DNA from: Ignavibacteria bacterium
Lineage (GTDB): Bacteria > Bacteroidota > Ignavibacteria > Ignavibacteriales > SURF-24
Direction of reading: 5' to 3'
Assembly: GCA_025612375.1 (NCBI GenBank)
Contig: JAAXKN010000004.1
Span: 124,001 to 188,000 of the forward strand
DNA: 64,000 bases
Position 1 is the first letter of the stretch, and each line of letters opens with the position of its first letter. Position numbers and translations under genes: made by a program. Shown piece after piece: positions 35,017 to 41,510 of the stretch. A model generated the notes under the pieces. The model was not told the DNA's origin and searched no databases. It saw only the letters and a list, made by a program, of their open reading frames with translations.

Positions 35017-37770
35017 ATGTTGGAATTTAACATAAAAAGTACAATTCATAAAAAAGTAATAATTTTACTTCTTTCCCTTGCAGCACTTTTCATTATTGCC
35101 CTTAATATTCTGAAGGATTCTGAAACTGAAAAGGTCAAAATGCTCATAAGGGATGAAGAAAATGAGCATGCCGCCCTGCTGGAAAATTCAGTCAGGAAAC
35201 TTGGCGAAGGGCTTTACACCTTTACTGACGACTATTCCAGGTGGGATGAGATGATGGTGTTTATGAAAAAACATCAGGATAAGTGGGCCGAAATTAATAT
35301 TGACGCAGCTTTCCCCACGTTTAACATACAGGCCTTCTGGTTATATGACACTAATTTTCAGCTGAAATATTCTAAAAACACCCTTAAAGGTACCCTGAGT
35401 GAAATCCTGCCTGTTCATGACAGAAAATTCAGGGAATTTATTAAGGCTAATCCTTTCTGTCACTTTTATACAAAAACTCCATACGGAATACTGGAGATCT
35501 GCGGTAATCCGGTTCAGCCTACAGAGGATTTATCAAGGAAGTCTCAGCCCCAGGGCTACCTTTTTGCCGGGCGGCTTTGGTCGCAAAAACAGCTGCAGGA
35601 GATATCGGCCTTGATTTCCGATTCTTTGACCATCGGGGATGCCGCCAGCACCCAAAAAGAAAAGGGAAGAAAAGATTACTTATCCATTGAAAATTCGAAA
35701 AAACTGCCCGGCTGGGATAAAAAAACCGTCGCAGTTATTAAAGCAAGGAAAGAATATCCAATTTTCAAAAAAGTGTTTATCTGGGCCTATATTCAGTATA
35801 TCAGTATGATCATCTTTACTTTTGTAATGCTTTTGTGCATTTCAGTATTTCTGTATTATACTGTTAATCAGCCGTTGAGTGCTATTTCAGGGGGCTTGAG
35901 AACAGGGGCGATGGGGTTTCTGGATAAGCTTAAGAAAAGAAAGGATGAATTTGGTGAACTTGCTTTATTGATGGAGGAGTTTTACAAACAGAAACAGATT
36001 CTGGAAAATGAAATTAAAAGCAGGGAAAATGCCGAATCTGAGCTGAGGAAAATAAAAGATGGTCTGGAAGTCAGCGTTGAAAAGAGGACAATGGAATTAG
36101 CCGGCGTAAATGAGAAGCTGGAACAGGAAATAACAGAACGGAAGAAGGTGGAAAAGAGTCTTCAGGATTTCCATAAAAGGCTGACAGGCGCTTTTTTTGG
36201 AAATCCTGATTCAATAAATATCTCCAGGTTAAGTGACGGGATGATAATTGATACCAACGAAAGTTTTTGCCGCCTTACGGGTTACAGCAAGGAAGAACTC
36301 CTTGGTAAGACCACACTTCAGTTAAAATTATGGGTGAGACCCCGCGAAAGGGAAAAGATGGTTGAGCGGCTCTTATCCAATGAAACTATCAGCAATTTAG
36401 AAACCGAATTTAAGACAAAAGACGGAAGCCTTAAAGCAGTATCTATATCTATCACATTAATGGAATATGCGGATGAAAAAGCGCTTCTCTTCATGATCCG
36501 TGATGTAACTGAAAGAAAGCGTGTGGAAAGTGAACTGGTGGAATATAAACAGCTGCTTGAAGGACAGATAGAGCAAAGAAATAACAAACTGAGTGAATTA
36601 AATAAAAGCCTGTCAGAGCAGATCGGGAAAGTTGAAAAAGCTGACAATGAAATAACTGATCTGATAATATTCTTCAAAACACTGCTGGATACTATTCCAA
36701 TCCCGATTCTCATACAGGATGTTAATAACAGATATACCAACTGCAACTATATAGCGGAAGAATTTTTTGGAATACAAAAGAAGGAACTGATAGAATCGTT
36801 GTCCGGCGGCAGTTCCTTAATTTCCGGGAATGACAATGACTTCCATCCGGCTGACGCAAAATTGCTGAATGAGAGGACATTTCAGAAACTTGAATCGAAT
36901 GTCATACTGGCAAATGGCGAGACCAGAAATGTTATAATCTACAGATCTTTATATAAAAGGAAGAATGACCAGCCTGGCGGAATTATCACCGCAATATTTG
37001 ATATAACTGACAGGAAGAAAAATGAAGTTGAACTGCTCAAAACATTGGAGAAAGAAAAAGAGCTTAATGATTTAAAGTCCAGGTTCATTTCTACGGCTTC
37101 CCATCAATTCCGGACCCCGCTGGCAACCATTCAGAGTTCAACCGACCTGCTGGACATGTTCGGGAGAAAATGGCCTAAAGAAAAATATAATGAACAGCTT
37201 GCAATTATTCAGGATCAGATCCGGCAGATGATAGAATTACTGAATGATGTCCTGACTGTCAGCCGGGCTGAAGCCGGAAAAGTAGAATTTCAGCCCTCAT
37301 TATGCAACCTTCACCAGTTATGTTTAACTGCCTTTAATGAAGCAAAATCTCTAGCTAATGAATATCACAGTTTTGCGCTCGATTATAAGATGAGCGAAGA
37401 GGACTTCTATATAGATAGAAAACTATTGAAGTATATCCTGAGTAATCTGCTTGGCAATGCGGTAAAATATACATTGAAGAAAGGGGAAATAAGGCTGACA
37501 GTGGAAAGGGAAGAAGGCTTTCTGGCAATTGAGGTAAGTGATCAGGGCATCGGCATTCCTGCAAAGGATATGATTAATCTGTTTGAGCCGTTTTACAGAG
37601 CTGAAAATGCCGGCAATCTGCCGGGAACAGGATTAGGGCTTTCAATTGTAAAGAAGTCGGTTGCACTGCATGGGGGTGAAATATTCTGCAGGAGCAATGT
37701 GGACGAAGGAACAACATTCAGGGTGATATTACCTGTAATTGATTATCAGGGGAAAACTGAAAATAAATAA
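35017..37770 (+). CDS. CHASE4-HAMP-PAS-PAS sensor histidine kinase
   Basis: A 917-residue membrane kinase. TM1 (about 14-31) and TM2 (about 262-287) flank a CHASE4 sensor with DYSRWDEM near residue 70. A HAMP-like segment and coiled coil (about 290-385) lead to PAS1 (about 388-503) and PAS2 (about 548-668). HisKA carries H696 in ASHQFRTP, and HATPase_c (about 800-912) has intact DQGIGI and GTGLGLSIVKKS boxes. It is the first gene of a same-strand set, and its stop overlaps the start of the next gene by one base (TAATG), so kinase and LytTR regulator form a cognate pair. Its sensor is paralogous to the kinase at 13389-15305. No clear ribosome site precedes the ATG. Confidence 0.95.
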   Translation: MLEFNIKSTIHKKVIILLLSLAALFIIALNILKDSETEKVKMLIRDEENEHAALLENSVRKLGEGLYTFTDDYSRWDEMMVFMKKHQDKWAEINIDAAFPTFNIQAFWLYDTNFQLKYSKNTLKGTLSEILPVHDRKFREFIKANPFCHFYTKTPYGILEICGNPVQPTEDLSRKSQPQGYLFAGRLWSQKQLQEISALISDSLTIGDAASTQKEKGRKDYLSIENSKKLPGWDKKTVAVIKARKEYPIFKKVFIWAYIQYISMIIFTFVMLLCISVFLYYTVNQPLSAISGGLRTGAMGFLDKLKKRKDEFGELALLMEEFYKQKQILENEIKSRENAESELRKIKDGLEVSVEKRTMELAGVNEKLEQEITERKKVEKSLQDFHKRLTGAFFGNPDSINISRLSDGMIIDTNESFCRLTGYSKEELLGKTTLQLKLWVRPREREKMVERLLSNETISNLETEFKTKDGSLKAVSISITLMEYADEKALLFMIRDVTERKRVESELVEYKQLLEGQIEQRNNKLSELNKSLSEQIGKVEKADNEITDLIIFFKTLLDTIPIPILIQDVNNRYTNCNYIAEEFFGIQKKELIESLSGGSSLISGNDNDFHPADAKLLNERTFQKLESNVILANGETRNVIIYRSLYKRKNDQPGGIITAIFDITDRKKNEVELLKTLEKEKELNDLKSRFISTASHQFRTPLATIQSSTDLLDMFGRKWPKEKYNEQLAIIQDQIRQMIELLNDVLTVSRAEAGKVEFQPSLCNLHQLCLTAFNEAKSLANEYHSFALDYKMSEEDFYIDRKLLKYILSNLLGNAVKYTLKKGEIRLTVEREEGFLAIEVSDQGIGIPAKDMINLFEPFYRAENAGNLPGTGLGLSIVKKSVALHGGEIFCRSNVDEGTTFRVILPVIDYQGKTENK

Positions 37771-38528
37771 TGGAAAAAATATTATTAATAGAAGATGAAC
37801 AGGCTCTCAGCAATAATCTTAAAATACTGCTGACAGAGAATGGGTATAAAGTTTACCAAGCTGCTAACGGCCTCGAGGGAATAAAGATGGTGCATGAAAA
37901 AAGTCCCGATCTCATAATTTCCGATATAATGATGCCCGGAATTGACGGCTACCAGGTGCTCGAAATAATAAACAGTGAAAAAAACCTTAGTATCCCGTTT
38001 ATTTTTCTTTCAGCAAAAGCAGAGATGGAAAATCTTAGGACCGGAATGCAGCTGGGTGCAGATGACTATCTTACCAAGCCTGTCAAGGCCTCAGACCTGC
38101 TGGAAGCAGTAAAAGTCAGGCTGCAAAAGCACAAAAACTACATTAAACAGCAGCTGAAGGCCGCAATCAAACATTCTGCCCCGGGCAAAGAGTCAAATGA
38201 CACAGTAATGCTCAGACTTAACGGCAAAATTGAGCTTATAAATAAAAAAGAGATTATCTGTGTAGAGGCTTTCGGCGAATGTTCCACGGTTCATTTAACA
38301 AAAGGCAGAAAGATAGTTGCCAGTAAATTATTAAAGCAGTGGCAGGCAGTACTGCCTGAAGAGGTGTTCATAAGGATCCATCGCTCCACCGTCATCAACG
38401 TGAAGTATTTAGATAAAATTGAACCCTGGTTTCAGCGCTCCTTAAAAGTATATCTTAAGGAAACCGAAAAGACATTTATTGTAAGTAAAAGGTTCGCAGC
38501 AAAGCTGAAAGGGCATCTGTCAATTTAA
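37770..38528 (+). CDS. REC-LytTR response regulator
   Basis: A 252-residue regulator. The receiver (1-120) has the full active site: E8/D9 pocket, phospho-acceptor D52 in ISDIMMPG and the K of LTKPVKA. The LytTR DNA-binding domain (about 148-252) contains FIRIHRSTVINVKYLDKI. It is translationally coupled to the upstream CHASE4 kinase, which should phosphorylate it. LytTR proteins bind tandem direct repeats about 21 bp apart as dimers; exactly such repeats lie 4 bases after this gene, in front of the next two genes. These, and perhaps its own operon, are its likely targets. Confidence 0.95.
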   Translation: MEKILLIEDEQALSNNLKILLTENGYKVYQAANGLEGIKMVHEKSPDLIISDIMMPGIDGYQVLEIINSEKNLSIPFIFLSAKAEMENLRTGMQLGADDYLTKPVKASDLLEAVKVRLQKHKNYIKQQLKAAIKHSAPGKESNDTVMLRLNGKIELINKKEIICVEAFGECSTVHLTKGRKIVASKLLKQWQAVLPEEVFIRIHRSTVINVKYLDKIEPWFQRSLKVYLKETEKTFIVSKRFAAKLKGHLSI

Positions 38529-38531
38529 TGG

Positions 38532-38584
38532 CCCGCTTATTATAATATTTGTCCCGCTTATTAATAAACTGTTCCCCCTAATGA
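38532..38584. promoter_or_regulatory. 21-bp-spaced direct repeats, candidate LytTR binding site
   Basis: CCCGCTTATTA occurs perfectly at 38532-38542 and again at 38553-38563, an offset of 21 bp. A third copy (CCCCCTAATGA, 8 of 11 matches) lies at 38574-38584, again 21 bp on. Two-helical-turn spacing of 9-11 bp direct repeats is the known mode for LytTR regulators such as AgrA and ComE. The site sits between the LytTR gene and the degenerate-receiver kinase gene. Binding is inferred. Confidence 0.6.
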
Positions 38585-38643
38585 ATTGATCTGTGTTGAC
38601 TCATATAAAACCCCGATTATTGAAGTAATAGTTGGGGAATTAT

Positions 38644-39729
38644 ATGGTCCGGGTACTTATTGCAGAAGGCGATCATTCCTTAAGAAAAAATATAAGGGCT
38701 TTACTTGAAAGCAGCGGCTACTTTGTGCTTGAAGCAGAAAACGGCTTAGAAGCACTGCATCTGATTGAAAGTGAACTGCCTGATCTGGTTTTATCCGAGG
38801 CCCAGATTCCTCTGGTGAATGGCTTTGAACTGCTTGAAAAGCTCAAAGAGAAAGCCCTTTACCCTATGATCCCTCTTATCTTTATTTCTACAAGAGCTGA
38901 CCTGACTGACATACGTGAAGGTATGAATAAAGGCGCGGATGATTATATCGTTAAACCCTTCAAAGCAAAGGATCTTCTGGAAGCCGTAAGGATAAACCTG
39001 GAGAAGAATGCTTTACTTATCAGTGGGCTTAATAAATTCAGAGATCAGATCGCAATGAATTTCAGCCATGAGCTCAGAACACCCTTAACCCCTATCCTGG
39101 GATATTCGCAATATCTGAAAGAATATCATTCCGGACTCTCAAAAGAAGAAATTGAAGAGGCATGCGCAAAAATACAGGTTTCCGGCAACAGAATGCTGAG
39201 GCTGGTAAATAAACTACTGCTGCTTATTGAAACATTGTGCATTGCTAACGACAAAAAGAAGATCCAGGGCCTCCGGGAAAGCGGCAGAGCCGACGCCGGG
39301 GCGATAATACCTGAAACTGTCTATGAAATTGCAGCCAGGTTTTCAAGAACCCGGGATATACTGGTCAATATTGAGGATTCCTGCTTAAGGATTACTGATT
39401 CATACCTGGAGGTAATGATCAGTGAATTGGTCGAGAATGCGCTTAAATATTCACCCGAAGGCTCAACAGTGGCAATTTCCACAGAAGTTACAGATGATAT
39501 ATACAAGTTCAATATTGCAAACCAGGGCTGCGGGTTTACAAAACAGGACATAAAGAAGCATTGTGCATTTGATCAGTTTGAAAGGGAGAATTTTACAACC
39601 GCCGGACTAGGCGTCGGATTTTCACTGGTCAAAAATATCCTGGAAATATTTGACGGCAAGCTTGAGATTGACAACGAGTACAAAAAGTATACAGATATAA
39701 AAGTATCGTTACCGCTGGTAAGTAATTAA
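38644..39729 (+). CDS. Receiver-histidine kinase with degenerate receiver
   Basis: 361 residues from the ATG at 38644; a TTG four codons earlier is possible, and GGGGAA sits 6 bases before the ATG. An N-terminal receiver-like domain (1-120) is followed by HisKA with H142 in NFSHELRTP and HATPase_c (about 235-360). The receiver has Glu (E52, LVLSEAQIP) where the phospho-acceptor Asp should be, and Gly in the acidic pair (AEGDH), while the conserved Lys (IVKPF) remains. The G1 box reads NQGCGF, with Asn for Asp; the N and G2 boxes look sound. It is soluble. The receiver otherwise resembles that of the LytTR regulator upstream, so it is probably a pseudo-receiver that gates the kinase without phosphorylation. 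Confidence 0.88.
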
Positions 39730-39764: not shown

Positions 39765-41510
39765 ATGTTTAAGCATTTACACTCAAAACTCGGATTGATA
39801 ATTCTTGGTACTGCCATTCTGTTTAATATAATTAGCAGGATAATATTTAAGGATCTGGCAATGTCTGCAATGGACATTACAGTAGTTGCAACAACAAATA
39901 TATTGCTCGCAGTGATTTCAGGAATATTCATCAACATTTTCCTTATCAAACCGATAGAAAAGCTAAGCCGTTCTGCAATGGAGGCCTCTGTTGGAAATTA
40001 CGACATTAAGATAAATACTCACACGAATGATGAACTGGGAGTACTGGGCCGTTCGATAGAGAAGCTGCTGGTGCATATTAAAGACGAAATAGCTATTTCG
40101 CAAAGTTTTCAGTTCGGAATTAATTCAGCATTCTTTATTTCCGATAAAGATACAAACATACTGTCAATAAACGAAGCTGCCTGCAGATTAATGAAGTTTA
40201 ATAAAACACCGGAAGAAATTATTAAAAAAATGAAAGTGAAAGATGTTTTTCTACAGGATGGGCTGTCAAGAAAAGCTTTCAAAGGAGATTATCTGAAAGG
40301 GGACCGTGTAACTTTGAAAGATCACAAAGGAGAAGAATTCCCCGTTTTAATACAAACCGGTCCTGTGCATAACAGTAAAAATGAGGTTGTTGCAGTTTAT
40401 GGATTCTTTGAGGATTTGCGTGAACTATTAGACAGACAAAAGCAATATCTGAATGAACAGATTGGACCGATTGCCGAAGTAATTAACTCAGTAGCACAAA
40501 GCGACCTTACAAGTTCAATTAAATTAGATGAAAAGAGCGATTTGTATTTACTAGGGGCAAATGTAAATAAAATGATCGACGGCCTTAACACTACATTGAA
40601 TGAAGTGAATCTTGCTGTTCAGGCAACGGCAAGCGCCGCAACTGAAATATCCTCATCGTCCGAAGAAATGGCCGCAGGTGCGCAGGAACAAAGCCAGCAG
40701 ACAAATGAGATTGTAAGTGCTGTTGAGCAAATGACAAAAACTATCTTTGAGAGCAGTCAGTATGCAGCAAAGGCCGCGGAGAACTCCAGGCTGGCAAGTG
40801 AAAGTGCTTCGGCAGGACAGAAAAAGGTTGAAGATACAAAGAAAGGAATGTTAAAGATTGTCGAATCCACAAAGTCTACCGGTGAAAAAATTACCTCGCT
40901 TACAAAAAAGACTAATCAGATAGGTGAAATTACACAGGTGATTGATGACATAGCAGATCAGACAAACCTGCTTGCACTTAATGCCGCAATTGAGGCCGCC
41001 CGTGCAGGCGAGCAGGGACGCGGCTTTGCTGTTGTGGCAGACGAGGTAAGAAAACTTGCCGAGCGCACCACAAAAGCAACCAAAGAAATTGCAGAGACAA
41101 TCAGCCAGATTCAATCTGAGGCGAACGAAGCCGATAATTCTATGAATGAAGCAGGAAAGGCTGTTCAGGAAGGGATGATGCTGACAGAGGCTGTTTCACA
41201 GTCATTGAATCATATACTTGAAGTAATTCAGAAAGTTTCAGATATAGTTTCCCAGGTGGCTTCTGCAAGCGAAGAGCAGGCAAGTACGGCAGAGCAGATA
41301 TCGAAGAATATTGAAGGAATTTCCAGTGTCACCCAGCAGTCTGCCGCAGGAACAGAGCAGATAGCACGTGCCGCAGAGGACTTAAACCGTCTGACAGTAA
41401 ATCTGCAGGACCTTGTATCGGAATTTAAATTGATAGAAAATGATAATAGAAGTAATTCGCACAAACTGGCCTTTAGAGGAAGCGGAAGGCTTGTAAGGCA
41501 ATCAGCATAA
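39765..41510 (+). CDS. Methyl-accepting chemotaxis protein with PAS domain
   Basis: A 581-residue chemoreceptor-like protein. Two close membrane spans (about 8-27 and 38-63) leave almost no periplasmic sensor. HAMP (about 64-116), a PAS domain (about 120-220), a second HAMP-like region (about 225-275) and the MA signalling hairpin (about 285-560) follow. The hairpin tip is the canonical [20 protein letters not shown]-type core, so CheA/CheW coupling should be possible. The PAS domain presumably senses a cytoplasmic or membrane redox or ligand signal. It lies 35 bases after the degenerate-receiver kinase and is followed by a terminator. No che genes lie in the window. Confidence 0.95.

Follow-up and report, generated by a model that had tools for sequence, protein, structure and literature searches.

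A putative LytTR operator array at a presumed sigma28-type promoter before a chemoreceptor operon in an Ignavibacteria bacterium

In the window, that is, the whole 64,000-nucleotide stretch of Ignavibacteria bacterium DNA analysed here, an array of putative boxes for a LytTR-type response regulator lies at a presumed sigma28-type promoter, and we consider it likely (probability about 0.72) that the array, when bound, activates the operon behind it, which encodes a hybrid kinase (REC-HK) and a methyl-accepting chemoreceptor (MCP). All features described are on the forward (+) strand. Upstream, the gene of a sensor histidine kinase (HK) with the architecture CHASE4-PAS-PAS-HisKA-HATPase (35017-37770; Pfam and ORF) overlaps by 1 base that of a REC-LytTR response regulator (37770-38528; Pfam Response_reg and LytTR), the presumed binder of the boxes. 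Downstream, the probable first target gene encodes a REC-HisKA-HATPase hybrid kinase (38644-39729; Pfam and alignment with 22 other REC-HKs), preceded by the ribosome site GGGGA (38634-38638), and the probable second gene of the operon follows after a 35-bp gap and encodes a HAMP-PAS-MCPsignal chemoreceptor (39765-41510; Pfam). In the receiver of this REC-HK, Glu replaces the phosphoacceptor Asp, which is kept in all 22 other REC-HKs aligned, and AEGD replaces the usual acidic pocket; the receiver is possibly locked, as a peculiarity of the window locus. Judging by architecture and conservation in the sequences, it is very probable that a LytTR-type response regulator docks at these repeats, and binding of the array by a LytTR protein, with the REC-HK and MCP operon as its target, is strongly suggested. 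Sigma28 use, phosphorylation by the upstream kinase and exclusive control by the adjoining regulator are steps that we infer, and activation rather than repression is read from the geometry alone.

The word CCCGCTTATTA occurs exactly at 38532 and 38553, a period of 21 bp, and a third copy, CCCCCTAATGA at 38574, agrees with it at 8 of 11 bases. Box 1 starts at the fourth base past the stop codon (TAA) of the REC-LytTR gene, so the sequence-only reading of this DNA was right about the exact pair 21 bp apart, the third 8/11 copy and the start of the site just behind the regulator stop. A LytTR-type operator has been defined as two repeats of 9-11 nt that lie 11-13 nt apart (PMC4847170), and the array fits this definition; the window has an 11-bp repeat with 10 bp between copies, and when the 8-bp core CCCGCTTA is counted instead, the gap between the boxes is 13. 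The word alone was dropped as evidence, since its enrichment in the window is not clear (29 occurrences with up to 2 mismatches versus 18.8 expected, near chance), and therefore the pair had to be tested. Using a 13-bp box matrix built from 64 boxes of other loci, with the window locus left out, the window pair ranked first with 27.3 bits over the 64 kb, both strands and 19 spacings (14-32), and the next best pair reached 19.5 bits. Individually, putative box 1 (CCCGCTTATTATA, 38532-38544) scored 14.9 bits, rank 2 among window positions, and putative box 2 (CCCGCTTATTAAT, 38553-38565), 21 bp further on, scored 12.4 bits, rank 7. Putative box 3 (TCCCCCTAATGAAT, 38573-38586), 20 or 21 bp past box 2, is degenerate, with 0.7 bits at 38573 and -0.2 bits at 38574, and about 2% of window positions score equally high. 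The genome scan for word pairs that had been proposed earlier gave, with up to 3 mismatches, 5 occurrences in the whole genome (5.2 Mb, 140 contigs) and 0 for the reversed control; the window pair alone is perfect, and one of the others consists of boxes 2 and 3 of the same array.

The repeats behind REC-LytTR genes are a property of the relatives as well. REC-LytTR homologues were found in all 39 genomes searched, and a clear orthologue (70% identity) was found only in one, G004. A profile search of genome contigs with the REC-LytTR alignment returned mostly receiver-only matches, the best full-length one being L116 (Ignavibacteriales), and in the search of solved structures receiver domains were matched, among the matches listed. 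When the DNA behind 44 REC-LytTR genes of the 39 genomes was examined in a model-free manner, direct repeats were in excess at spacings of 20 bp (z 10.7) and 21 bp (z 3.2), and |z| stayed below 2 at every other spacing from 12 to 32 in the same regions. A two-box model, seeded with the word and re-estimated from the data of 56 REC-LytTR loci, fits 36 of them, with box pairs directly behind the regulator gene, a spacing of 20 in 28 loci and of 21 in 6, and the family half-site [CA]CC[GA][CT]TTA[TC][TA]ACA; when 14-30 bp were allowed, 26 loci at 20 bp and 5 at 21 bp together made up 31 of 35. These locus counts overstate the number of independent events, as loci that share a genome or genus are not independent of one another. 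Among the 37 REC-LytTR genes whose downstream DNA was long enough, 12 have no good box pair directly behind the gene. Pairs at L044, L046, L087 and L110 lie inside genes and were set aside as chance by their context. The usual spacing in relatives is 20 bp and the 21 bp of the window is the minority form, a point that goes beyond the earlier reading. Phasing in relatives that keep the genes had been named beforehand as a check, and the repeats are indeed kept at 20/21 bp, with zero indels in the orthologue from box 1 through the -10 element. The earlier assignment as a LytTR-type operator is likewise favoured by sequence comparison, because in many related genomes the same boxes, at 20/21 bp, precede genes for REC-HK, CheW and MCP.

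The gene neighbourhood points to the downstream genes as targets. The recurring order is HK, REC-LytTR, boxes, REC-HK, an optional CheW and MCP; the next four genes hold an MCP or CheW gene at 22 of the 37 loci, and a REC-HK, MCP or CheW gene at 29 of 37, and the whole genome has only 12 MCP genes. The orthologue locus has no REC-HK gene, and there the operator directly precedes the MCP gene, which agrees with the earlier proposal that the REC-HK and chemoreceptor genes are the probable targets. Where unrelated genes intervene, as at L049 in the same genome and at L053, the boxes are found just before the downstream signalling gene, and they can also lie later in the cassette, before CheW (L214) or before MCP (L060). 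Since it is the REC-HK, CheW or MCP gene that the boxes accompany, they are part of the downstream promoter and not a tail of the regulator gene. In addition, a three-box array with spacings of 20 and 20 bp precedes an unlinked MCP gene in a genome of the same genus (L215:2081-2160; G001:C40).

A promoter element lies at a fixed distance from the boxes. The motif CGA[AT][AT]A was first spotted by eye in the cassette sequences and tested afterwards. Its offset from box 2 is +40/41 in 12 loci, +60/61 in 5, including the window and the orthologue, and +81 in 1, which are steps of the box period, and it occurs nowhere else between +30 and +110. CGA[AT][AT]AT starts 40/41 bp past the promoter-proximal box and agrees with the sigma28 -10 element of the flagellin genes of the same genomes. 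In the +60/61 class a further, weaker box is found 40/41 bp before CGA; the five loci fall in the top 0.5-5% of positions of their own DNA, and the window is the weakest of them (0.048), the other four being better or similarly weak. The weak third repeat of the window is the promoter-proximal LytTR box, whose position counts more than its letters because it lies 40/41 bp upstream of CGATTATT, the place of the proximal box in relatives. This sigma28-like CGAWWATT at fixed distance was absent from the earlier reading and gives the degenerate third repeat a reason for its place.

Compared with the flagellin promoters of the same genomes, which read CTAAAC-N16-CGATAAT with 22 bp from the first C to the C of CGA in 20 of 21 cases, the cassettes keep CGAWWAT and have a weaker -35. 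Among 19 aligned cassette promoters, T at -21 is found in 12 and A at -19 to -17 in 12-13. With a -10 matrix made from flagellin promoters only, 12 of 35 cassettes have their best match at a grid position, compared with an average of 1.6 and a maximum of 6 for shuffles. The sigma28-like -10 element of the window, CGATTATT (38614-38621; CGATAATT in the orthologue), stands at a fixed distance from the boxes as in 19 loci and scores only 0.4 bits with this matrix. At the -35 position, 22 bp before the C of CGA as in the flagellin promoters, the window has TGTGTT (38592-38597), which does not match CTAAAC; TCTGT is common with the orthologue there, and among the relatives only some have a TAAA-like -35. 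An activated promoter would be expected to combine an activator site with a weak -35. A transcription start is predicted at 38625 from the sequence, by giving the C of CGA the position -11 that it has at E. coli aer (PMC2859248).

The combined arrangement was also searched over the order, using the pattern CCRYTTA-N12-14-CCRYTTA-N31-34-CGAWWAT in 164 genomes. Ten matches were obtained, compared with 0 for the reversed control, and the pattern, which contains no gene information, finds mainly chemosensory genes, as 7 of the 10 precede REC-HK, CheW or MCP genes, several of them without an adjoining REC-LytTR gene. These are MCP genes at L291, L298 and, behind one gene, L296; CheW followed by a 4HB-MCP-type receptor at L294 and L295, the latter already known from a previous search in this analysis; and REC-HK genes at L297 and, behind one small gene, L290. 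Of the other three matches, L289 lies before the genes of a LytS-type kinase and a LytTR-type regulator, L292 before that of an outer-membrane efflux protein, and L293 before an ORF without assigned family that follows a REC-HK cassette. The degenerate proximal box keeps the window itself out of the matches.

The recognition word belongs to a known type, so the earlier claim of a new LytTR recognition sequence is not supported. The LytTR response regulator BtsR/YehT of E. coli binds half-sites ACCGCTTA/ACCACTCA with a 21-bp period, in the site ACCGCTTACATCCCTAAAATAACCACTCA at yjiY (btsT), and the core CCGCTTA and the period are the same in the window (PMC4847170, Table 1). Against the BtsR/YehT-type word ACC[GA]CT[TC]A at 21 bp, the window CCCGCTTA matches at 7 of 8 positions, twice. 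The window system is not a BtsS/BtsR system, however, since BtsR has a LytS-type kinase partner and a pyruvate transporter (btsT-type) as target, whereas the window has a CHASE4-PAS-HisKA kinase, a REC-HK and chemoreceptor operon, a sigma28-like promoter and a third box. In its geometry the site resembles that of AgrA at agr P2/P3, where the proximal repeats are centred near -60 (PMC4227749): both have a pair of direct repeats ahead of the -35 of a suboptimal promoter, and boxes 2 and 3 of the window would be centred near -55 when the C of CGA is taken as -11. The AgrA word is different, and AgrA serves quorum sensing and not flagellar or chemosensory functions. A functional parallel would be E. 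coli aer and trg, chemoreceptor genes with sigma28 promoters activated by CRP centred at -49.5 (PMC2859248), where an activator binds just upstream of the -35, as would be the case in the window if its promoter is an activated one of the sigma28 type. There, CRP acts at a single site on a global carbon signal, whereas the window has a dedicated two-component LytTR protein with 2-3 direct repeats, found at many loci. A study of LytTR with sigma28, or of LytTR in Ignavibacteria, was not found in the open-access literature, and as far as the literature searched shows, LytTR operators coupled to sigma28-type chemoreceptor promoters are new.

It is possible, at less than half the weight given to activation at a sigma28-type promoter, that the operator is real and the promoter is read by a housekeeping or other sigma factor, with CGAWWATT as a non-flagellar -10 activated in the manner of AgrA or BtsR. 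The window -35 is not TAAA-like, the -10 of the cassettes is often CGAATATT and not CGATAAT, and three loci of the window's genus (L048, L050 and L088) keep the boxes and have, with no CGA at the expected place, the common core AGAATGC..., which means that the sigma class varies. The L215 core promoter, AGAATGC...TTAACTTCA, resembles L050 of the same genome and not CGAWWAT, and by these sequences the genus may have another class of promoter following such boxes. However, the flagellin promoters and five other MCP operons of the own genome, the latter with zero LytTR boxes, have CGATAAT with TAAA about 21 bp upstream, and most of the 19 aligned cassette promoters keep the T and A positions given above. 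Furthermore, every genome seen with a REC-LytTR/MCP cassette has flagellin. A candidate flagellar sigma factor is also available: the own genome encodes a 208-aa sigma protein inside the flagellar gene cluster (L264:2155-2781; G000:C2), with Pfam regions 2 and 4 and no region 3 match, which would read the cassette promoters. As no protein in any genome searched exceeded the cut-off of the FliA model TIGR02479, including this one, the flagellar sigma factor was recognised by gene neighbourhood. Such a short sigma factor was found among flagellated relatives and, among the matches listed, for none of ten flagellin-less genomes, which is a tendency and not proof.

Which LytTR protein occupies the site is a related matter, and there is perhaps one chance in four that it is bound by a different one of the genome's 11 LytTR proteins, or by several of them in common, so that the adjoining pair is not its sole master. 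Sites on C60 and on C43 of this genome carry nearly the same word; the C43 site is a three-box array, CCCGTCTGTT, CCCGCTTATT and CCCTGTTACT at 21 and 20 bp (L047:804-857, G000:C43), upstream of a CHASE3-PAS histidine kinase gene, with zero REC-LytTR genes in the 8-kb stretch examined, and this kinase gene is likely a trans target of a LytTR regulator. Against this, adjacency of regulator and site is kept in the orthologue and many cassettes, and the C14 cassette of the same genome (L049:5064-5096) has a different box word, GCGCTTACTT, which suggests a divergence of DNA specificity among the LytTR paralogues. Repression by the LytTR protein, or feedback on the kinase-regulator pair instead of downstream activation, appears improbable. 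The site does abut the regulator gene, and in a second LytTR class the same boxes precede operons of a LytS-kind kinase and a LytTR-type regulator (L099:1501-1531, L075, L077 and L289), pointing to autoregulation in that class. In the window, however, the site lies behind the regulator gene and not before the kinase gene, and the matrix scan of the window found no good box pair upstream of 35017, the kinase gene start; the boxes stand upstream of a weak -35, the position of an activator, and they stay with the downstream gene where other genes intervene. A chance duplication, or a 3' untranslated element of the regulator mRNA, was rejected on the comparative data and is very improbable. The near-chance frequency of the single word and an imperfect inverted repeat CCCC...GGGG (CCCCGATTATTGAAGTAATAGTTGGGG, 38611-38637), which spans the -10 element and the ribosome site and is not kept in the orthologue, would fit such an origin, but spacing and word are kept in dozens of loci and boxes precede MCP and CheW genes without a regulator gene.

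Taken as an activated sigma28-type promoter, the locus would work as follows. The CHASE4-PAS kinase would phosphorylate the REC-LytTR protein, as the gene pairing suggests, and its LytTR domain would bind CCCGCTTATTA-type half-sites on one helix face every 20-21 bp, as expected from the conservation and from the BtsR site of E. coli. The last box of the array stands 40/41 bp ahead of CGATTATT, the presumed -10 of a sigma28-type promoter with a poor -35. Bound LytTR therefore most likely activates: it would contact the RNA polymerase that contains the flagellar sigma factor and so bring about transcription of the REC-HK gene and the chemoreceptor gene. Sensing by the kinase would then decide whether the chemoreceptor is made at all.

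Flagellar-sigma promoters are usually thought to need no activator, and the exceptions found are E. coli aer and trg under CRP. Our results suggest that two-component systems in the order turn individual chemoreceptors on and off. For the order as a whole, we would give about even odds to a scheme in which paralogous kinase/LytTR pairs each gate the flagellar-sigma promoter of their own chemoreceptor operon, so that a layer of regulators above the flagellar sigma factor chooses the receptors of the chemosensory array and divergence of the box words keeps the switches apart. With many paralogous regulators beside their own sites in one genome and its relatives, these loci are also a ready test set for LytTR specificity. 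If the recurring LytTR array before chemoreceptor operons, seen at dozens of loci, has this role, a whole order of bacteria would select its receptors by dedicated two-component systems.
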